From NCBI GenBank assembly GCA_009846005.1, contig VXYL01000066.1, positions 19,717-83,716 of the forward strand: DNA of 64,000 nucleotides. Reading direction: 5' to 3'. Of the stretch, positions 1 to 64,000 are shown piece after piece. This DNA comes from Gammaproteobacteria bacterium. Lineage in GTDB: Bacteria > Pseudomonadota > Gammaproteobacteria > Pseudomonadales > Azotimanducaceae. The position numbers were made by a program, and so were the translations under genes. A model generated the notes under the pieces. The model did not search any database. It had not been told where the DNA came from and worked only from the letters and a program-made list of their open reading frames with translations. Each line of letters opens with the position of its first letter. Within the stretch, counting starts at the first letter, position 1.

Positions 1-217
1 GGCTTGTCCCGTCCCGCGGGGTGCGCGGGCGACCACGAGGGTCGCCCCTACGGTGCGCGGCCTCGCCGGCGGCGTAGGGGACGGGCTTGTCCCGTCCCGC
101 GGGGTGCGCGGGCGACCACGAGGGTCGCCCCTACGGTGGCGGCCTCGCCGGCGGCGTAGGGGACGGGCTTGTCCCGTCCCGCGGGATGTGTGGGCGACCA
201 CAAGGGTCGCCCCTACG
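1..217. repeat. Tandem array of composite palindromic elements (three units, 82-bp period)
   Basis: Three near-identical units: a left-truncated one ending near 51, then 73-135 and 155-217. Each complete unit is 63 bp. It opens with CGTAGGGG, forms a hairpin with arms GGGACGGG/CCCGTCCC and loop CTTGT, then a second hairpin with arms GGGCGACC/GGTCGCCC, and closes with CCCCTACG. Its ends are therefore inverted repeats. Units are separated by a 19-bp GC-rich spacer, giving an 82-bp period. The last unit overlaps the end of the RND pump gene and supplies its TAG stop. The array may continue left of the window. Confidence 0.9.
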
Positions 218-7873: not shown

Positions 7874-8503
7874 ATGACCGCCACCGTGATCGACACGCTT
7901 AGGTATGCAGATCGGCTCAAGCAGGCCGGTGTGGCGCCTGGACAGGCCGAGGGAATGTCTCGCGCCCTGAACGACGAACTCACCGAAGGGCTGGTGACCC
8001 GTAAAGACCTCGACGACGCCGTCGCGGGATTGAAGGGCGACCTCGACGACGCCGTCGCGGGATTGAAGGGCGACCTCGACGACGCCGTCGCGGGATTGAA
8101 GGGCGACCTCGGCGACGCCGTCGCGGGATTGAAGGGCGATCTCAACGATGCCGTCGTGGACCTGAAGGGCGACATCGACGGTCTCGGCAACAGGATCGAC
8201 GTGTTGGAGACGAAGTTCGACTCGAAGTTTGACGGGGTGGATGCCAGGTTCGAGGCCATGGATGTCAAGTTCGAGGCCATGGATGTCAAGTTCGAGGCCA
8301 TGGATGTCAAGTTCGACGCGCTCAGCAGTCAGAGCAAGTACGTGTTCCTCGTGCTGGCGCTCATCGCCGGACTTGGCCTCTACAACGCCACCGCGCCGCA
8401 TTTTCTTGGGAAGAGCGTACCGGCCGACGGGTCGAGCCTCGTGGCGCCGACCGCGCTGACGAAGGGGAACCCAGCGAATGCGGCGAGCACTCCCGGGTCT
8501 TGA
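7874..8503 (+). CDS. DUF1640-like coiled-coil protein with C-terminal membrane anchor
   Basis: A 209-aa protein opening MTATVIDTLRYADRLKQAGV, which is typical of the DUF1640 coiled-coil family (related to mitochondrial MCUR1/CCDC90-type proteins; bacterial function unknown). Residues about 45-99 are five 11-residue repeats (DLDDAVAGLKG and variants). Residues about 127-147 are three 7-residue repeats (EAMDVKF). One hydrophobic segment near residues 157-175 (YVFLVLALIAGLGLYNA) should anchor it, followed by a short low-complexity tail. An in-frame TTG lies 9 bp upstream, but ATG 7874 matches the family start. The internal repeats are exact at DNA level, so the length probably varies between strains. 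The NUDIX gene start overlaps or abuts its stop. Confidence 0.75.
   Translation: MTATVIDTLRYADRLKQAGVAPGQAEGMSRALNDELTEGLVTRKDLDDAVAGLKGDLDDAVAGLKGDLDDAVAGLKGDLGDAVAGLKGDLNDAVVDLKGDIDGLGNRIDVLETKFDSKFDGVDARFEAMDVKFEAMDVKFEAMDVKFDALSSQSKYVFLVLALIAGLGLYNATAPHFLGKSVPADGSSLVAPTALTKGNPANAASTPGS
8008..8172 (+). repeat. Five 33-bp direct repeats inside the DUF1640-like gene
   Basis: Units at 8008-8040, 8041-8073, 8074-8106, 8107-8139 and a divergent 8140-8172. The first three are identical and the fourth differs at one base. Each encodes 11 residues, the hendecad period of a right-handed coiled coil. Confidence 0.92.
8252..8314 (+). repeat. Three 21-bp direct repeats inside the DUF1640-like gene
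   Basis: Identical units at 8252-8272, 8273-8293 and 8294-8314, each encoding EAMDVKF, a heptad. They continue the coiled coil just before the membrane segment. Confidence 0.9.
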
Positions 8504-9361: not shown

Positions 9362-9387
9362 GGGACGGGACAAGCCCGTCCCCTACG
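9362..9387 (-). repeat. Solitary palindromic element (CGTAG type, GGGACGGG arms)
   Basis: Read on the minus strand, this is CGTAG followed by arms GGGACGGG/CCCGTCCC with loop CTTGT, identical to the left half of the 1-217 array. It sits in the 253-bp space between the NUDIX gene and the promoter of the membrane-protein/XRE pair. A partner element to its left is not clear. Confidence 0.85.
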
Positions 9388-16127: not shown

Positions 16128-19100
16128 CTATTCCAAACGCAACTCCTCGTCCGGCCAGGTGGACAGGTTGGTCAAGTGGCCCGTGGGGCTCTCCAGCAGA
16201 TTCATGACCATGACGTCGGCGGCGGACTCGGCCGCAACGAAGACGCGCAGTTCCCACTTGCCCGTCCCGTCGCCCAAGGCCCCGGCGAGGCTTTCGCCAT
16301 CTCCCGACTCAAGCGCTAGGGAGGTAAGCGTTCGCGCGGTGCCCGCCGGCAGCGACAGCATTGCCGGGCCGCGCTCCGCGCCGTCGTCGTCGACGCCGAA
16401 GATGGTGATCGCCGCGTCCGAATCGCCCCGGTTGACGAGCCGAAGCGAGCTGACCTGGCGCGTGTTGCTCGCCGGATTGAAGAACGGCACGCGTCGTTCG
16501 TCCCCGCAATCGCGGAACGAGAAGGTACGCTCGCTTCGTGCCGCGACCCTTCCGCCCTCGACCTCCTCGGCGGCGCACGTGTCCCGGACGACATGATCGT
16601 GCATGCTCGTCAGGAATCCGTCCCGCGTGCGCACGTAGGCGGACACCGCGAGATCCAATGTGCTCTCGAACTCCAACCGCCACGGCCCTTCGCCGGTGCC
16701 GGCGGCGCCTTCGAGCCCTTTCTCGGCATTGCCGAACTCCCAGTCGTCCGAGTTGAAATGCACGGTGCGCCCGGCGGGCAGCTCTAACAGGAGGGGACCG
16801 TACGACGCGCCCGCGTCGTCGTATCCCCGTATTCGGGCCGTGCCGGCCGTGCCGCCGAGGTTCGCCACCCGCGCGAATCCCTGCTGCGTGGGATGCGACG
16901 CCGCGGGGAACATCGGCACCACGAGGGCGTCGGACGAGGTCGACAGATTGGTGAGGTGGCCGGTGGGGCTCGACATGAGATTCATGACGTGAATCGCCGC
17001 GTCCGCCGACACTACGAGACGCCATTTTCCTTCGCCGTCGCCGAGCGAACCGGACAAATCTGCCGCGCCGGATTCCAGTTCCGTCGCGTCGAGTGTCCTC
17101 GTCGAATGCGCGTCGAGGGAGAACCGCACGGGATCCGCTGAGACCCCGTGGTCGTCGACGGCGTAAACCGTTACGTCCGTGTCCTCCCCGCTTGGATTGA
17201 CAAGACGTAGCCTGCTGCGCTGGTTCGTATTGCTTGCCGGGTTGAAGGTGGGCACGAAGTGGCCGCCCGCTGTCCGATCGGACGCCGCGACGGCGCGCCC
17301 TCTCAAAGCGTCAAGCCGTTCGTTCCCCGGCGGGAGCCACGCCGCTGTGTCGTGCATGGACGTGACGAATCCGTCCGCGGTGCGGATGTAGGACAGGACC
17401 TCGAGGTCGTCGGCGGCGTAGACGCTAAGGCGGTCGCCAGCCTCGGACTCGATCGTCGAACGAAGACCCTTGCTCGGGTTGCCGGATACGAGGTCGTCGG
17501 AATTGAAGTGCCGGGCATTCCGCGCACCGAGCAGGAAGCGGGAGGGACTGCCGTCCTGCCCCGACGCAAAGATCCACGCCCTATCGGAAGCGTCTTGACC
17601 CGACGGCGGCTCGCCCACGACCGACGACACGACGCGGACGAAGCCCTGCCGGAAGCCGCCCGGGGCGGGAAAGAACGGCACGCGCCAGCCGCCGCCGGCC
17701 AAGCGGACGCCCAGTTCCCGCATGGCGGGGATATGGACGTCCCGCGAATCCGCATCGAGCGGGTTGGCCCAGAGACTCACGCTGCCGAGGGACGCGGGCG
17801 CGCTGGCCAGCGGCATTGCATCGGCGACGGCGTTGCCGCCCAAGTCCAGAGATTGAAGGCTCGGCAGGTTCGCTGCCGGTCCGATGTCAACGATCTCGTT
17901 CACGGCAGCATCCAACGTCCTCAGGGACCGCACGCCCTCAACTGCCGACAGATCCGTCATCCGGTTGTTCGATAGATCGAGCGACCACAGTTCCAAACGC
18001 GACAACGCGGATACGTCCGAGATCTGGTTGTCGGACAGGTCGAGAAAGACCGTAAAGGGGACGCCCGATAGAGGCGAGATGTTCGTTATCTCGTTGTCCG
18101 AAAGTACGAGCTCGCCCACCAATAATCCCGACAGCGAGGAAACGTCCGACATGCCATTGCGTGAAAGATCGAGTTCAAGGAGGTAACCGCCCCTGAGCGG
18201 TGCCACATCGGAAATCTGGTTGTCCGCAAGGTAGATTTGGAACGCCGGGGTGCCTGATAGCGACGACACGTCCGAAATGTCGTTGTCCGAAAGATCGAGG
18301 GTTAGCAACTCGGGTAGGTCCGACAGCGGCGAGAGGTCCGAGATCGCGTTGCCCGAGAGAAAGAGGAAGGTCATCTCGGGCAGGTCCGACAGCGGCGAGA
18401 GGTCCCAAATCTGGTTGTCCGCAAGATGAAGAACGGCCAGCAACTTGAGGTCCGACAGTGGGGTCAAGTCTGAGATCCGGTTGCCCGAAAGCGTGAGAAC
18501 ACTCAACGTGTCGAGGTCGACCAACGGCATCAAATCCGCCAGCTCGTTGTTGGAGAGATGGAGGTAGTCCAGTTCGTTCATGCCGGTGAGGGGCGACAAG
18601 TCAGAGATTTCGTTCTCGGAGAGATAGAGAAACGACATCCTCGTCATGCCCGCCAAGGGGGCCAAGTCTGAGATCCGGTTGTCGTCGAGGTCGAGATCCC
18701 ACAAGAATTGCATTCCCTCCAATGACGCCACGTCGGTGATCCGGTTGTTCGAAAGGTCGAGCGAAGCCAGGTCGGTCAGTCCGGCGAGAGGGGACAGGTC
18801 CGATATCCCGTTGCTCCCAAGCTCTAGAAAACGCAACGACGAGACCAGGCCCGCGAGCGGCGACAGGTCCGTGATGCCGTTGTTGGAGAGTTCGAGAATG
18901 CGCAGTACGGACAGGTTGGCGAGTGGGGCCAGGTCCACGATCTCGTTGTTCGACAGACCGAGCCGGTCCAGGGTGGTCAGGCCCGAGAGCGGGGACAGGT
19001 CTGTGACCCCGTTGTCGCCAAGAAGGAGCCATTCCATCGCGTCAAGGCCTGAGAGCGGCGCGAGGTCTGAGATGCGGTTGTCTCTCAGGTCGAGAGATTC

Positions 19101-19616
19101 CAGTGCCTCCAGGCCCGCTAGCGGTGAGGGGTCTGAGACGTTGTTGAAAGGAAGCCCGAGGAGAGTCAACGAGGTCAGGCCCGCCAGCGGCGTCACGTCC
19201 GCAATCCGGTTTCTGGAAAGGCGGAGGGTCTCCAATGCGGTCAAGTCCGACAGCGGCGCCAGGTCGACGATTTCGTTGGACCACAACATCAGTTCCGTCA
19301 ATTCCGTCGCGTGCTCAAGACCGGTGAGATCCTTGATGCCGAGGTAGTTGGCCTGCAGTTCCGTCAACGACTCCATCTCCTCGACGGTGATCGTCTCGCC
19401 GGACTGCTTGTCGAGCGCACGTTCTATGGCGGCCCGGAGACTCTCGTCGGGGATGTCCGCCTCCTGGGCCTCGGTACCCGTCGGAACTGCGGCTGCGACG
19501 AGATAAATCCATGCCAGCACCGGGTGAAGGCGATGGCGAGTGCCCCGCGTTTGCCGCGCCGCAGCCCGCGTGATGCGCATGGCACTTTTGGTTCGGTTCG
19601 CTAGCGGCAGCTTCAT
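16128..19616 (-). CDS. Large exported leucine-rich-repeat protein (internalin-like LRRs plus repeated C-terminal beta domains)
   Basis: About 1162 aa. A basic N terminus and hydrophobic stretch (VLAWIYLVAAAVPTGTEA, residues about 33-50) form a signal peptide. Residues about 85-600 hold about 24 LRRs of 21-22 residues of the internalin SDS22-like type (N-x-I-S-D-L-x-P-L). The remaining 550 residues are two module types in A-B-A-B order. The A modules contain HFNSDD, GNxxKGL and YxRTxDGFxTSMHD. The B modules contain FNPASNTxQ, LRLVN and SPTGHLTNLSTS. No LPXTG or obvious anchor is present, and it ends NLSTWPDEELRLE. Adhesion or host/surface interaction is plausible but unproven. The start is uncertain (19616 or 19580). 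Confidence 0.82.
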   Translation of the reverse strand: MKLPLANRTKSAMRITRAAARQTRGTRHRLHPVLAWIYLVAAAVPTGTEAQEADIPDESLRAAIERALDKQSGETITVEEMESLTELQANYLGIKDLTGLEHATELTELMLWSNEIVDLAPLSDLTALETLRLSRNRIADVTPLAGLTSLTLLGLPFNNVSDPSPLAGLEALESLDLRDNRISDLAPLSGLDAMEWLLLGDNGVTDLSPLSGLTTLDRLGLSNNEIVDLAPLANLSVLRILELSNNGITDLSPLAGLVSSLRFLELGSNGISDLSPLAGLTDLASLDLSNNRITDVASLEGMQFLWDLDLDDNRISDLAPLAGMTRMSFLYLSENEISDLSPLTGMNELDYLHLSNNELADLMPLVDLDTLSVLTLSGNRISDLTPLSDLKLLAVLHLADNQIWDLSPLSDLPEMTFLFLSGNAISDLSPLSDLPELLTLDLSDNDISDVSSLSGTPAFQIYLADNQISDVAPLRGGYLLELDLSRNGMSDVSSLSGLLVGELVLSDNEITNISPLSGVPFTVFLDLSDNQISDVSALSRLELWSLDLSNNRMTDLSAVEGVRSLRTLDAAVNEIVDIGPAANLPSLQSLDLGGNAVADAMPLASAPASLGSVSLWANPLDADSRDVHIPAMRELGVRLAGGGWRVPFFPAPGGFRQGFVRVVSSVVGEPPSGQDASDRAWIFASGQDGSPSRFLLGARNARHFNSDDLVSGNPSKGLRSTIESEAGDRLSVYAADDLEVLSYIRTADGFVTSMHDTAAWLPPGNERLDALRGRAVAASDRTAGGHFVPTFNPASNTNQRSRLRLVNPSGEDTDVTVYAVDDHGVSADPVRFSLDAHSTRTLDATELESGAADLSGSLGDGEGKWRLVVSADAAIHVMNLMSSPTGHLTNLSTSSDALVVPMFPAASHPTQQGFARVANLGGTAGTARIRGYDDAGASYGPLLLELPAGRTVHFNSDDWEFGNAEKGLEGAAGTGEGPWRLEFESTLDLAVSAYVRTRDGFLTSMHDHVVRDTCAAEEVEGGRVAARSERTFSFRDCGDERRVPFFNPASNTRQVSSLRLVNRGDSDAAITIFGVDDDGAERGPAMLSLPAGTARTLTSLALESGDGESLAGALGDGTGKWELRVFVAAESAADVMVMNLLESPTGHLTNLSTWPDEELRLE

Positions 19617-30779: not shown

Positions 30780-31271
30780 ATGGAACTCGCTTCCACGGTA
30801 CTTGACCTGGCCAATACCGAGGACGCCGCGCCGATTGCGCGTCTTTCTCGGGATGAGATCGAGCGAGGACTGGACTGGCGTTGGCGACCTCCGGCGATCC
30901 GCCGCTTGATCACAGCGCCGGAGGTGGCGGTGCTATGCGCGCGTTGCCGGGTCGCGTCGTCCGCGACGACCACGGAGTTGCTCGGTGGTTTCGGTGCGAT
31001 GGAGTTCGGCCTCGACCGTGCCCACCTCGTGCTGCTGGCCGTGGAACCGAGCTTGCGCCGCCGCGGTCTTGCCCGGCGCATGCTGCGCTGGCTCGAGAAG
31101 TCCGCGCGTACCGCGGGCATCGGCGAGATCGACTTGGAAGTCCGCGCCGACAACAGCGGCGCACGGCAGTTCTACCTCGTCGAAGGTTTCAGCCGCGGCG
31201 AGTATCTGCCCGGGTACTACCAGGGCCGGGCGGCGGCCTACCGGATGAACAAGAAGCTTGGGTTCACGTAG
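30780..31271 (+). CDS. GNAT family N-acetyltransferase (RimI-like)
   Basis: A 163-aa acetyltransferase. The acetyl-CoA loop is RRRGLARRMLRWLEKSA (residues about 95-111), preceded by HLVLLAVEPSLRR. The following EIDLEVRADNSGARQFYLVE and GFSRGEYLPGYY are the usual fourth motif of RimI-type enzymes. Acetylation of a protein N terminus or small amine is likely; the target is unknown. The gene is divergent from the enoyl-CoA hydratase gene across 146 bp. Its stop TAG (31269-31271) belongs to a palindromic element, and the last residues (KKLGFT) run right up to it. Confidence 0.86.
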   Translation: MELASTVLDLANTEDAAPIARLSRDEIERGLDWRWRPPAIRRLITAPEVAVLCARCRVASSATTTELLGGFGAMEFGLDRAHLVLLAVEPSLRRRGLARRMLRWLEKSARTAGIGEIDLEVRADNSGARQFYLVEGFSRGEYLPGYYQGRAAAYRMNKKLGFT

Positions 31272-31418
31272 GGGCGGGGCTTGTCCCCGCCGGCGCATTG
31301 GGGGTTTTCAGCGGGACGGGACAAGCCCGTCCCCTACGGAATGCACCGGCGCGGGACGGGACAAGCCCGTCCCCTACGGAATTCGTCCGCGCGGGACGCG
31401 ACAAGCCCGTCCGCTACG
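31267..31418. repeat. Cluster of four palindromic elements
   Basis: A forward element CGTAG + GGGGCGGGG...CCCCGCC at 31267-31291 is followed by three reverse elements ending CTACG at 31338, 31378 and 31418, spaced exactly 40 bp. The first two reverse copies are identical; the third has mutations in the arms. They fill the whole space between the convergent GNAT and ubiB genes. Confidence 0.9.
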
Positions 31419-34325: not shown

Positions 34326-34506
34326 CGTCGGGGCTGGGCTTGTCCCCGCCCGCACCGGATCCGCACTTCGATCGCGGGACGGGACAAGCCCGTCCCCCAC
34401 GGAATGCGTCGGCGCGCGTCGGAACCCCGTAGGGGCGGGGCTTGTCCCCGCCCGCAAGGGTGCGCCCTCGCCGTCCGGCCCCAGCCCTCACCGCCCGTCC
34501 CCTACG
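34326..34506. repeat. Palindromic repeat cluster between DUF971 gene and ubiE
   Basis: A mutated forward element (CGTCGGGGCTGGG...) at 34326-34351 is followed by a reverse element with CCCACG end near 34401. A third, complete composite at 34428-34506 runs from CGTAGGGGC to CCCCTACG. The right-hand composite supplies the DUF971 stop codon. Nothing else is seen in 34267-34501. Confidence 0.83.
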
Positions 34507-40809: not shown

Positions 40810-42210
40810 ATGGTCGAATCGATGCACAACCTCCCGGACGAGGATCTGACCGAGCGGATCTGCCGCGGCGATCAGCAAGCGTTTCTGGTGCTCGTCCGGC
40901 GCTACGAGAGGTCGTTGGCAGCCCTGATCGGCCGTCGCCTGGGCGCGGCAGGGACGGTGGACGCGGTCGAGGATCTGCTGCAGGAGACGTTCGTGCAGGC
41001 ATGGCGGGGACTTGCATCCCAGTCGCCGAGAAACGTGCGCGCATGGCTCTACCAGGTGGCACGGAACCGGTGCAGCGACTTCTTGCGTTCTTCCCAGCGC
41101 CGGGAACGCACCGTCGACGACGAATCGCTCGCCGTTATGGTCAACCGCCTTGGCGCCACGGATGCCGAGCAGCGTCGGGTGGCGGCAGAGGTTTTCGAGG
41201 CCTTCGAAGCGGTTCCGGTGCGTGAACGCCAGGCGCTCGAGTCGTTCTACCTGGAAGGGTTGAGCATCGCCGAGATCGCCGCCCGGCATCGCTGCGCGCC
41301 GGGCACCGTCAAGCGACGACTGTCGCATGGGCGCGACTGGGTTCGCGCTGAATTGGGTATTGCTCCAGTAGGGAGGGAAACTGCTATGAATAGGGACAGT
41401 CAGGCCAAGGTTGCCCGGTTCCCCGCGATACGGCCGGGTATCGTTGTCGAAAGGCAGCCAGCCACGGCGATGCCGATCGACATGCGCGAACTCACTTGGT
41501 GGTTCCTGGTCCCGGAACTTCACGATGAAGTGCGCTGGGCCGAGTACCAGCCGGTTCAGGGCGGATCGACTTGGCGACTTGCGGCCGCCACGGCAATGAA
41601 GGCGGCACGACCTGCGGTGCTTCACGACCGCGACTGCGTGGAAATCGAAGTGGACCAGACGCAAGAGACGGTCGACGGCCTGTTGATCGCGATGTCGACG
41701 GACCGCCATACCAAGGTGTGGGGTCGCCTGACCGACACCGAGGTCGAATGGCTCGGAGTCGAGCGGCTGGCGCCCGACGGAACGCGAAAGCTCGACACCT
41801 TCCTCGACGACGGCTTCGAGTTGGACTGGGGCGCGTGTCCACGGCATGTCGAGGTCGGCGAATGGTTGGTTGAAGACCCGAACGGGAGCTTGAAACGGCG
41901 GCCGGACAGTCCCGCGGTGTTCGCGGACGGCGTATTCGCCGTACGGGTCGGGAGTCGGACGTTCAACTGCACCCGCGTCGTCGAGATGGAAAAGGAAGCC
42001 ACGGAGCTGGATGTCGTCATCGTCGCGTATGTGGACAATGGCGGGCGAACCGTCCTGTTCCGTCGCTACGACGGCGATCGTCGTGTTCCCCATGATGGTT
42101 CGCCGCCGCGCCGGGACCTGCTGCCGGACGCGGACCGGCTCGTGATCGACGGCATGACCTTCGTGCACAGCTACGACTACCTGACTGCCGAAGCCTGCGG
42201 CGTTCCGTAG
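40810..42210 (+). CDS. ECF sigma factor with a 270-residue C-terminal extension of unknown function
   Basis: 466 aa. Residues about 10-80 are sigma region 2 (AFLVLVRRYERSLAALIGRR, DLLQETFVQAWRGL, VRAWLYQVARNRCSDFLRSS). Residues about 125-180 are region 4 (VRERQALESFYLEGLSIAEI and GTVKRRLSHGRDWV). The frame then continues without a stop into about 270 residues with no recognisable domain and no membrane helix, including ELTWWFLVPELHDEVRWAEY. At the junction Met193 (41386) has its own strong ribosome site GGGAGGG 8 bp upstream. The locus may therefore also make the C-terminal part alone, or it is a recent fusion of two genes. The stop TAG comes from a palindromic element. Confidence 0.84.
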   Translation: MVESMHNLPDEDLTERICRGDQQAFLVLVRRYERSLAALIGRRLGAAGTVDAVEDLLQETFVQAWRGLASQSPRNVRAWLYQVARNRCSDFLRSSQRRERTVDDESLAVMVNRLGATDAEQRRVAAEVFEAFEAVPVRERQALESFYLEGLSIAEIAARHRCAPGTVKRRLSHGRDWVRAELGIAPVGRETAMNRDSQAKVARFPAIRPGIVVERQPATAMPIDMRELTWWFLVPELHDEVRWAEYQPVQGGSTWRLAAATAMKAARPAVLHDRDCVEIEVDQTQETVDGLLIAMSTDRHTKVWGRLTDTEVEWLGVERLAPDGTRKLDTFLDDGFELDWGACPRHVEVGEWLVEDPNGSLKRRPDSPAVFADGVFAVRVGSRTFNCTRVVEMEKEATELDVVIVAYVDNGGRTVLFRRYDGDRRVPHDGSPPRRDLLPDADRLVIDGMTFVHSYDYLTAEACGVP

Positions 42211-42318
42211 GGGCGACCCTAACGCGCCCGAAGGGCGCGCGGTCGCCCGGAGCCCATGTGGCTTGGTGTTCCGGCGGGCCCGCTGGACGCGCGGGACGGG
42301 ACAAGCCCGTCCCCTACG
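42206..42318. repeat. 113-bp composite palindromic element with a nested palindrome
   Basis: It runs from CGTAGGGG (42206) to CCCCTACG (ending 42318). The left hairpin GGGCGACC/GGTCGCCC has its loop replaced by another palindrome, CGCGCCC-GAA-GGGCGCG. The right half is the usual GGGACGGG/CCCGTCCC element. Flanking bases are GTTC and ATTC (three of four match), a possible eroded target duplication. It lies between the ECF-sigma and amidase genes; 42319-42404 holds nothing else recognised. Confidence 0.83.
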
Positions 42319-54129: not shown

Positions 54130-54155
54130 CGTAGGGGACGGGCTTGTCCCGTCCC
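54130..54155 (+). repeat. Solitary palindromic element (CGTAG type)
   Basis: CGTAG followed by arms GGGACGGG/CCCGTCCC and loop CTTGT, identical to the copies in 1-217. It lies just upstream of the GntR operon promoter on one side and the RHH-Uma2 gene on the other. Confidence 0.87.
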
Positions 54156-61294: not shown

Positions 61295-63127
61295 TCAATG
61301 CTCCCACGGCGGCTCCGCAAATATCGTTCGCCCGGCAGCGTTCTCTGCCGAGGGCGCGGGAAGGATGGGCAGTCGTTCCTGCGACTTGCCCTTTTTCTGG
61401 ACTTCGACCTGGGAGATGAGAATCCCGGGCGCCGCTGCCGAGACGGGCACGCTCCCCGATTCGGCCCCGCAGAAGCCGTTGAACACCGCCAGTTGATCGT
61501 CCGCCGCGACGACACGACTCAACGTCGTAAGCGGTGTCCCGATGAGGTCGACGCCGCGCACCAGCTCCTCCCGACCGTCCGGGTAGACGCGGTAGACCAT
61601 GTTCGGCTGAACGTTGAACGCGTTCGGCATGAACCGGCCCGTGGTCGTTATCCCACCCTGAATGTCGTCGATGAAGAGCCCAAACGGTCGCCCGCTATCA
61701 CGGATCATCGCCAGCAGTTGCGCCTTCAAGGCGTCGCGGCTCACGGCATCGCGCACCTCCACGATGAGGTTGGATTGGCGGGACACCGGTCTGTAGCCGT
61801 ACTGTTTGCGGCCGTGTCCGTTGGATCCGGGGAAGCCTTCGATGGGGGTGCGCGACATGAGGAAGTCCACGAGCACGCCGTCGTCGACCACTACGACGGC
61901 GCGGCCGGGAACGCCCTGGTTGTCGTAGCGGTACGCCCCGACCAGATCCCGGCCTGCGGCCTGCCGGCGCGTCGGGTCGAACGAGACGGTAAAGCCGGGT
62001 GGCAGGATGCGCTCGTTGACCTTCTTCTTGAAGGTCTGGCCGTCGTCGGCGCGCTTCTGCCGATGGCCCTCTATGCGGTGGCCAAGGATCTCGTGGAAGA
62101 ACACGCCGCTTGCCCGCCCGGACAGGATGGCGGGGCCGGTGTACGGGTCGACCAACGGCGCGTCGCGCAGTGCTGCCAGGTCGGCGACCATTCTGTTCGC
62201 GGCGCCGAGAACGGTGTCGTCGTCCGGCAGACCCCCCGGCGTAAACGCGAAGTAGGACTCGTACCGGGGCAGCGCCATCCCGTCGTCGGCTTTCGTTCGC
62301 GCTGACACGAAGACCCGGTAGCTCGACTCCCCGGTTTGGACTTCGCTGCCCTCGCTATTGACGAACCAACGCGTCTCGGCGGCACCGGAGACCGTCGCGA
62401 AGGCAGCGTAGACCTGATCATGCCCGGCAAACGGTGCAGAGTAGAGCTTGGCCTTGCGTTCCCAATCCGGCAGCTCGGCTTCGAGCCTTGCCGCGTCGTC
62501 GACCGCCTTGGTCGGTTTCTCGTGCGAGAAGTCGGCGGACTTGTCCTCCGCTTCGACCTTGACCTGTATGTCGGTCTCGACCTTTGTCAGTGCTTCGATA
62601 GCTTGCTTGTAGCGTTCGTCCGTGGCGTTCCACACGACGCTCCTGATGGCGTCGATGTCGTCGTCGAACGGAATCCGCACCGTCGTGCGCCGGTTGCGCG
62701 CACCTTGGATCGGCCGCGTATTGTCGAGACCATAGTCGCCGACGCGGAGATCGATATCGAGGTAGCGGCTCCGGCCTCGGCTGCTCCCCGTCAAGGCCCC
62801 GAATGCCGCGGTCGCGGACGCGGTCTCCCGCTCGGTGACTTCGTAGCTCAGAAAGTACGGTGGGACCGGTTGTTCGCCGAGCATGGCCATGGACCGTGCC
62901 AATTCGGTCTTGAGGGCTTCCATGACGGGGGATTCGGCCGCGACTGGCGCGGCTGCCAGCGTTGCGACAAGCAGGTGGCGCTGAAGAACCGCGTAGGGGC
63001 GACCCTTGTGGTCGCCCGCGATGGTCCAACGCACCCGGCTTCGGTGCGGGCGGGGACAAGCCCCGCCCCTACGACCGGGATTCGGCGTCTGCGAAACGCC
63101 ATGTCCGGGACCAGCACGCCGCCGCAT
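61295..63127 (-). CDS. Exported TldD-family metalloprotease (catalytic subunit)
   Basis: Up to 610 aa. The zinc motif HEXXXH is intact as H345-EILG-H350 in FFHEILGHRIEGHRQ. DNQGVPGRAVVVVDDGVLVD, SRTPIEGFPGSNGHGRKQYG and IQGGITTTGRFMPNAFNVQP are TldD landmarks. The present frame starts at ATG 63127 (GGAGG 8 bp upstream) and reads through an 82-bp palindromic insertion before the hydrophobic segment LLVATLAAAPVAAES. Without the insertion an ATG at 63102 would give MAFRRRRIPVLQRHLLVATL, a normal signal peptide. GTG 63034 is another possible start. With its TldE-like neighbour it probably cleaves unfolded peptides in the periplasm. Confidence 0.84.
   Translation of the reverse strand: MRRRAGPGHGVSQTPNPGRRGGACPRPHRSRVRWTIAGDHKGRPYAVLQRHLLVATLAAAPVAAESPVMEALKTELARSMAMLGEQPVPPYFLSYEVTERETASATAAFGALTGSSRGRSRYLDIDLRVGDYGLDNTRPIQGARNRRTTVRIPFDDDIDAIRSVVWNATDERYKQAIEALTKVETDIQVKVEAEDKSADFSHEKPTKAVDDAARLEAELPDWERKAKLYSAPFAGHDQVYAAFATVSGAAETRWFVNSEGSEVQTGESSYRVFVSARTKADDGMALPRYESYFAFTPGGLPDDDTVLGAANRMVADLAALRDAPLVDPYTGPAILSGRASGVFFHEILGHRIEGHRQKRADDGQTFKKKVNERILPPGFTVSFDPTRRQAAGRDLVGAYRYDNQGVPGRAVVVVDDGVLVDFLMSRTPIEGFPGSNGHGRKQYGYRPVSRQSNLIVEVRDAVSRDALKAQLLAMIRDSGRPFGLFIDDIQGGITTTGRFMPNAFNVQPNMVYRVYPDGREELVRGVDLIGTPLTTLSRVVAADDQLAVFNGFCGAESGSVPVSAAAPGILISQVEVQKKGKSQERLPILPAPSAENAAGRTIFAEPPWEH
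62988..63077. mobile_element. 82-bp MITE-like palindromic element with 4-bp target duplication
   Basis: The element is 62992-63073. Its left end CGTAGGGGC begins hairpin GGGGCGACC/GGTCGCCC. Its right end, ...GGGCGGGG, loop ACAAG, CCCCGCCC then CTACG, is inverted relative to the left. It is flanked directly by ACCG on both sides (62988-62991 and 63074-63077). Excision of the element plus one ACCG restores an uninterrupted signal-peptide frame in the tldD-like gene. No transposase is encoded. Confidence 0.82.
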
Positions 63128-63130
63128 GGT

Positions 63131-64000
63131 CTACGCCTCCGGTCCGCGGCGCGCCACGAGTTGCCGCTCGACGACCACCTCGTTGAGTTCGAGCCCGAGG
63201 CCCGGTGTCGTTGGGGGATCGATAAACCCGTTTTCGAACTTCACGGGCTCGACGAAGATCTCGTTGTGCAAACTCGCGCCGTTGTACTCCTGGATTAGGA
63301 AGTTCGGCGAGCAGGTGTCGACCTGTACGGCCGCGGCGGCGGCGATCGGGCCAACGTACATATGCGGGGCGATCATGGCGTAGTGGCTTTCCGCCAGGCT
63401 CGCGATCTTCTTCGACTCCAGTATGCCGCCGCACTGGCCGACATCGAGTTGGATGATCTGCGCCGCCTGCTTCTCCAGGAGATTTGCGAACTCGTACTTG
63501 GTGACCAGCCGTTCGCCGGTAGCGATGGGAATGCTGGTATGGGCCGCGACCCGGGCCATCTCCTCGACGTTTTCCGGTGGCACGGGCTCTTCGAACCAGT
63601 ACGGCTGGTACTCCTCGAACACCTTCGCGACGCGGATGGCGCCGGCGGTGCTGAACTGGCCGTGGGTGCCGATGCCGATCTCCAACTCGTCGCCCACGGC
63701 GTCGCGGATGGCCTTGAAGATCTTCGCGGCGTGTTTGATCGTCTTCAGGGGGAAGTCCCTGGGTAGCGGGAAGTAGGGCATGAACGGGTCGATCTTGCAG
63801 GCCGTGTTGCCCTCCTTGACGAGCTGCTCGGCGATGGCGCCGGCCTTCGTGGGATCTTCCCAGACCCCGGTGGTGGGCATGTACGCATACGCGCGCAGCT
63901 GCTCGTGGCAGCGCCCGCCTAGGAGGTTGTAGATCGGCTGGCCGGCTGCCTTGCCGACGATATCCCAGAGCGCCATTTCGATGGCGGAAAGCGCGGGTGT
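63131..64000 (-). CDS. Mandelate racemase/galactonate dehydratase-like enolase-superfamily protein (5' end outside window)
   Basis: 290 residues of the C-terminal part; the frame runs off the right edge (TPALSAIEMALWDIVGKAAG is internal sequence). The barrel carries the metal ligand Glu in PYWFEEPVPPE, another Glu in IATGERLVTKYE, QLDVGQCGGI and the general-base-region His in IAPHMYVGPI. These fit acid-sugar dehydratases of the DgoD type. The first metal-ligand position, normally Asp in VDFHGR, reads GTHGQ here. The stop (TAG) is 3 bp before the ATG of the TldD-like gene, so translation is probably coupled. Confidence 0.87.
   Translation of the reverse strand, partial: TPALSAIEMALWDIVGKAAGQPIYNLLGGRCHEQLRAYAYMPTTGVWEDPTKAGAIAEQLVKEGNTACKIDPFMPYFPLPRDFPLKTIKHAAKIFKAIRDAVGDELEIGIGTHGQFSTAGAIRVAKVFEEYQPYWFEEPVPPENVEEMARVAAHTSIPIATGERLVTKYEFANLLEKQAAQIIQLDVGQCGGILESKKIASLAESHYAMIAPHMYVGPIAAAAAVQVDTCSPNFLIQEYNGASLHNEIFVEPVKFENGFIDPPTTPGLGLELNEVVVERQLVARRGPEA

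Follow-up and report, generated by a model that had tools for sequence, protein, structure and literature searches.

The window, i.e., the whole stretch of 64,000 nucleotides that was analysed, belongs to a genome (G000) of 4.96 Mb in 106 contigs. Close to its right end, an enolase-superfamily gene and a PmbA/TldD-like metallopeptidase gene follow each other on the minus strand, and the N-terminal part of the latter's open reading frame (ORF) is traversed by an 82-bp palindromic composite. The respective features are listed below, where G005 and G003 denote genomes of related species.

61295..63127, minus strand: ORF of a PmbA/TldD-like metallopeptidase, which runs through the doublet without a stop and has 610 aa when read from ATG 63127 (PF19289, E 1.3e-23)
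63131..63976, minus strand: listed ORF of the enolase superfamily (MR_MLE C-terminal), whose stop lies directly before the TldD-like gene; the start of the gene may lie outside the window
63125..63127, minus strand: proposed ancestral start, an ATG beside the upstream stop; G005 and G003 have GTG at this position
62992..63073, no strand: REP doublet (BIME/REPIN-type) of two GTAG-tagged hairpins in inverted orientation, GTAG ends facing outward
62992..63017, plus strand: REP type a, C-GTAG-GGGCGACC-CTTGT-GGTCGCCC
63018..63047, no strand: doublet spacer of 30 nt, containing GTG 63034 (minus strand), a possible internal start
63032..63034, minus strand: this GTG of the spacer, 43 nt ahead of the gene-sense 3' end of the doublet; G005 has GTG here and G003 ATG; alternative start
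63048..63073, minus strand: REP type b, C-GTAG-GGGCGGGG-CTTGT-CCCCGCCC
62988..62991, plus strand: ACCG, one flank of a claimed target duplication
63074..63077, plus strand: ACCG, second flank of the claimed duplication, adjoining a 3-nt length difference to G005 and G003

Both units follow the same plan, i.e., a short palindromic stem-loop (8-bp stem, CTTGT loop) with GTAG at its foot, and the doublet is an inverted pair of them. The initial annotation had placed the composite at 62992-63073 with inverted 9-mer ends (CGTAGGGGC/GCCCCTACG) and ACCG directly on both sides, which is indeed what the sequence contains. Folding the 90-mer 62988-63077 as single-stranded DNA gives a z-score of -3.10. 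The exact 16-nt core of the spacer is found in no other fetched locus.

GTAG-tagged REP families are characterized in PMC3733652 (BMC Genomics 2013) by GTAG at one end, a short stem-loop and mostly head-to-head dimers, and the same account locates some of them within ORFs and at the N termini of ORFs. The GTAG end, the stem-loop, the outward doublets and the N-terminal ORF site observed here are alike, and the stem/loop types of the present family (GGGCGACC-CTTGT, GGGACGGG-CTTGT, GGGCGGGG-CTTGT) can be likened to the families of that paper by description only. REPINs or BIMEs, as introduced in PMC3116915 (PLoS Genet 2011) and PMC8266576 (NAR 2021), comprise two REPs in inverted orientation around a variable spacer and are thought to be mobilised by RAYT/TnpAREP; the inverted REP pairs with spacer found here are similar. 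The 82-bp composite is a GTAG-tagged REP doublet of this known BIME/REPIN kind. A literature search with the letters of the repeat returned, among the matches listed, titles that looked unrelated.

The window holds further REP sites:

1..217, no strand: REP array, window-side flank of the RAYT gene
9362..9387, minus strand: single REP type c
31267..31418, no strand: REP cluster of type b/c, one plus-strand and three minus-strand units
34326..34453, no strand: REP cluster, three type b/c units
42206..42318, no strand: REP doublet of a degenerate type-a unit and a type-c unit; G003, G005 and G010 have related sequence here, G002 does not
54130..54155, plus strand: single REP type c

Within the whole genome, REP-a (searched without its leading C) has 143 matches with at most 1 mismatch (control 0) and 250 with at most 3 mismatches (control 2), where the larger count includes mirror matches, i.e., hairpins matched again on the other strand, such that 143 is a lower bound. 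Types b and c jointly account for 486 matches with at most 3 mismatches (control 0). This amounts to at least about 630 REP units (143 + 486) dispersed over many contigs, i.e., the high-copy dispersal of GTAG-tagged REPs. REP-a occurs in 11 of 16 genomes of the genus compared to 1 of 42 others, where it is present at one place.

To describe how the units are paired, we used a sample of 114 sources: besides the window, these are 33 loci that had come up in similarity, pattern and family searches and 80 fetched stretches, the latter mostly around type-a places among the matches listed. Mirror matches of REP-a (40 of 288 raw matches) were taken out, since they otherwise hide real doublets. The remaining 237 distinct units form 110 distinct adjacent pairs (at most 120 nt apart), which are oriented outward in 76, inward in 29 and in the same direction in 5 cases. 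That is, inverted REP pairs with a short spacer prevail in the sample, as is typical for REPINs and BIMEs. The 76 outward doublets combine type a with b/c in 70 cases and two b/c units in 6, while a-a doublets are absent, which has a probability of about 1e-8 when partners are drawn at random (type-a share 143/629). The predominance of a + b/c and the lack of a-a resemble the y-z mosaics of E. coli as described in PMC8266576. The listed REP-a places of two other genomes (G008, G009) are often plus/minus pairs about 60 nt apart. This suggests that doublets of these genomes combine two type-a units, in contrast to the a-b/c pairs of G000.

A candidate agent of this spread is encoded just left of the window. 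The whole genome contains only one PF01797 match (C12:19094-19390; 39.4 bits with a cut-off of 23), which lies in the following gene.

G000:C12:18962-19612, minus strand: RAYT ORF, intact, 216 aa, beginning about 105 bases to the left of window base 1

Between this start and window base 1, there are 10 consecutive Ns. A REP doublet abuts the 3' end of the gene, and a REP array including window positions 1-217 lies beyond its 5' end, such that REP doublets are present on both sides. The ORF carries MPNHVHGL and RGYFDH, i.e., an HxH motif and a later Tyr, which we take to be the catalytic residues of this RAYT. Its best NCBIfam match is REP_Tyr_transpos (NF047646) with 79 bits (cut-off 80); on the genome, this model finds the RAYT gene and five weaker places, which we take as probable genes of the IS200/IS605 type. 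A PDB sequence search with the RAYT gave no match.

A RAYT gene flanked by its REPs is called a REPtron (PMC3733652, PMC8266576). The RAYT genes with adjoining REP doublets in G000 and G010 are comparable to this definition, where the likeness is read from sequence alone and the G000 protein stays one bit under the NCBIfam cut-off. We thus regard the gene and its flanking REPs, judged by these motifs and this arrangement, as a REPtron with a predicted REP-type (Y1, HUH) tyrosine transposase. The RAYT relative in G010 (74% identity) is flanked by an array of both REP types and, on its other side, by a single unit. Both REP types are also found beside the RAYT gene of L205 (Gammaproteobacteria bacterium IRC1_bin_7), whose aligned RAYT equals that of G010; L205 is therefore not an independent REPtron case, and both may be the same organism. 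Other observations argue against a close coupling of RAYT genes and these REPs. Among 30 scanned loci, clear REPs were seen only at the two REPtron loci, and a third had a single unit with 4 mismatches. Three proteins of the genus that exceed the cut-off (about 90 bits; G004, G009, G014, loci L145-L147) are without such REPs in their fetched flanks. Several REP-bearing genomes (e.g., G005, G003, G008) show weak RAYT matches only, and their fetched loci are free of REPs. The family of the composite had been taken as mobile, presumably by means of a transposase encoded elsewhere, and this view holds up: the doublet was probably spread by the RAYT encoded about 63 kb away, just outside the window and among such REPs.

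We compared the doublet's site with orthologous loci. In G005 (about 93% protein identity over the compared part) and G003 (83%), the doublet occupies the orthologous site between the enolase-superfamily gene and the TldD-like gene, with identical order and orientation of its units. The insertion is thus old and not, as the initial annotation had it, a recent jump. The gene-sense flanks are TCCT...CGTG in G005 and TCCT...CGTT in G003, neither of which is duplicated. That is, the flank at 62988..62991 reads CGGT in G000, CGTG in G005 and CGTT in G003 (gene sense), while the flank at 63074..63077 is CGGT in G000 vs. TCCT in both others. TCCT is common to species of both branches of the protein tree and would most simply be ancestral, with the second ACCG (63074..63077) probably derived later, in the G000 lineage. 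In G006 (about 70%), the site is free of REPs and the leader is read from an ATG that overlaps the upstream stop. Among the TldD-like loci scanned (L035-L051), some of which are distant or paralogous, 3 of 17 have REP units near the N terminus.

The tree of the TldD-like proteins is (G000,G005),(G011,(G002,(G003,G010))), i.e., it groups G003 with G010 and G002, both of which lack the doublet. This grouping would be expected if the site had been hit twice, once in the ancestor of G000 and G005 and once in G003. We consider such a pair of independent insertions very improbable: the two REP types show the same order and orientation, the spacer is alignable and the right junction TACGCG is common to G000, G005 and G003, as is the left flank TCCT to G005 and G003. 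Moreover, the enolase-superfamily gene is followed by other DNA in G010 and G002, where no REP unit turned up and the leader is a different one; a loss by replacement is the simpler account of this. From these comparisons, a single doublet insertion appears to predate the divergence of G000, G005 and G003 and to have occurred without target duplication. By eye, a PIN/ribbon-helix-helix toxin-antitoxin-like pair is seen in G002 (L281) and G010 (L282) at the place of the doublet.

Next to the shared site, the sibling copies inform about the proposed 4-bp target duplication. Flanks were usable for 74 of the 76 outward doublets. As a background, the right flanks were re-dealt among the doublets. 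Identical flanking 4-mers are found for 1/74 doublets, namely for the copy at 62992-63073 itself (shuffled mean 0.60, p = 0.45). Matches of 2 bp (8/74; mean 5.82, p 0.21) and 3 bp (3/74; mean 1.34, p 0.14) are similarly unremarkable, matches of at least 5 bp are absent (0/74), and all lengths from 2 to 10 are within chance. When boundaries were shifted by 100 different offsets, the highest count was 5/74. The ACCG pair is thus what chance provides, and the tabulated flanks of the sibling copies, where 4-bp duplications had been anticipated, hold no excess of them. REP doublet insertion seems to leave no detectable target duplication, as judged from these flanks, and the apparent 4-base scar at 62992-63073 is best read as a coincidence.

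The same data bear on a recently inserted miniature element (MITE) of a DDE transposase with terminal inverted repeats and 4-bp target duplication, which would imply a full-length IS bounded by CGTAGGGG. It would account for ACCG on both sides and for the inverted ends of the composite. However, flank identity is at chance level and no duplication of fixed length emerges, the orthologous copies in G005 and G003 are without duplication, and the linked transposase belongs to the Y1 type. We therefore deem this origin extremely improbable.

We further studied the reading frame through the doublet. As stated in the initial annotation, ATG 63102 is out of frame, while ATG 63127 and GTG 63034 are in frame through the repeat (GDHKGRPYA). 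An ancestor had been reconstructed by deletion of the element together with one ACCG. Removal of the 82+4 bases does bring ATG 63102 into frame (MAFRRRRIPV followed by LQRHLLVATL, by eye); yet ATG 63102 is absent from both G005 and G003, and MAFRR is found in none of the six frames of the loci of 16 relatives (L036-L051, where L038 is N-terminally incomplete) nor in L281 and L282. Frame restoration, which in combination with the duplication had been considered hard to explain by chance, is by itself expected in about 1 of 3 cases.

Followed upstream from the mature protein, the frame stays open in all three species, through the doublet and up to a start codon a few bases past the enolase stop (ATG, GTG and GTG in G000, G005 and G003, respectively). 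The distance from this first start to the doublet is 54/75/72 nt and the doublet length 82/88/88 bp (same order), i.e., distances and lengths differ by multiples of three, a pattern of three sequences only, and each length is 1 mod 3. One of the two other frames has stops in 3/3 species, the other in 2/3. REP-derived codons end in GDHKGRPYA (G000) and GDRKGRPYA (G005). Since the doublet is in frame and 1 mod 3 long in three species, its codons probably contribute to the coding sequence of the TldD-like leader.

A second REP doublet with an in-frame GDHKGRPYG is located directly upstream of an orthologous gene, MFS-like as judged by eye, in L217 (G000:C5:161500-165500) and L218 (G010:C80:37600-41600). 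The frame of this MFS gene is open over 617 codons in both G000 and G010, and MMSD after the doublet looks like its true start. An open frame through a REP is thus weak evidence of translation, given that this frame is open upstream of a likelier start as well.

The MFS case, known from two species, also speaks for a different reading of the TldD-like gene, namely that the doublet belongs to a 5' untranslated region, the protein starts downstream and the open frame is accidental. This would agree with a caution expressed in PMC3733652, by which REPs at the N termini of ORFs may in many cases be extragenic, i.e., outside the true coding sequence, and with the GTG codons that follow the doublet in G005 and G003. 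In G000, on the other hand, there is no ATG, GTG or TTG between the doublet and the mature domain, such that the protein would lose its leader, and the frame is kept in three species. We regard an untranslated doublet as unlikely.

Taken together, we are confident in the following explanation: a REP doublet was inserted before the split of G000, G005 and G003, with the RAYT as likely agent and without duplication, and is now probably situated in leader coding sequence. It rests directly on the anatomy of the doublet, the copy number, the RAYT linkage, the shared site, the lack of a duplication excess and the open frame in three species, from which we infer that the RAYT moved the doublet and that REP codons are translated. 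The doublet would have entered between the stop of the enolase-superfamily gene and the signal-peptide core of the TldD/PmbA-like gene, mobilised by the putative REP-type (Y1, HUH) transposase that sits among like REPs at the left window edge. Two leaders are conceivable: a long one, translated from the older start codon next to the upstream stop, and a short one, which would begin at the conserved GTG/ATG start of the spacer and continue with R, a few residues, GD-K-GRPYA and the hydrophobic core. A co-option of the doublet as coding sequence, whereby start codon and charged n-region of the TldD-like signal peptide would come from the doublet and be retained in frame over at least three species, is a tentative extension that we think somewhat doubtful. 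As a hairpin at the beginning of the mRNA, the doublet could also modulate translation.

The overall picture is that of an ordinary REPtron family, in which one gene carries an old doublet in its leader. That REP DNA can serve as coding sequence is known in principle; here it is probably kept across species, and the TldD-like leader provides a concrete case of REP DNA probably translated within a signal peptide in several species. PMC3733652 reports that Rickettsia palindromic elements are kept inside protein genes, some of them N-terminal, that R. conorii RPE sequences end in CGTC and that the CGTC class is without a dedicated transposase. The present doublet is similarly a palindromic repeat in a protein gene; in contrast, it belongs to the GTAG class and has a RAYT. 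The REPtron, with its hundreds of REPs mostly arranged as two-type doublets, is found in an uncultured lineage. The analysis also corrects an attractive reading, since a perfect 4-bp 'target duplication' disappears when related species and sibling copies are compared.

Finally, filled and empty sites were compared for other REP positions of the window. No clean empty site with a footprint was seen at 9362, 10178, 16070, 31267, 34326, 42206 and 54130. At 42206, the doublet is missing in G002 along with about 20 further bases, which may reflect a deletion, and at 34326 the orthologous sequences are scrambled. Repeats of other kinds are present in the window as well, i.e., tandem repeats of 33 nt and 21 nt at 7973-8308, and repeats mostly 66 nt apart at 17929-19226 within an ORF of 1208 aa, a leucine-rich-repeat-like spacing.
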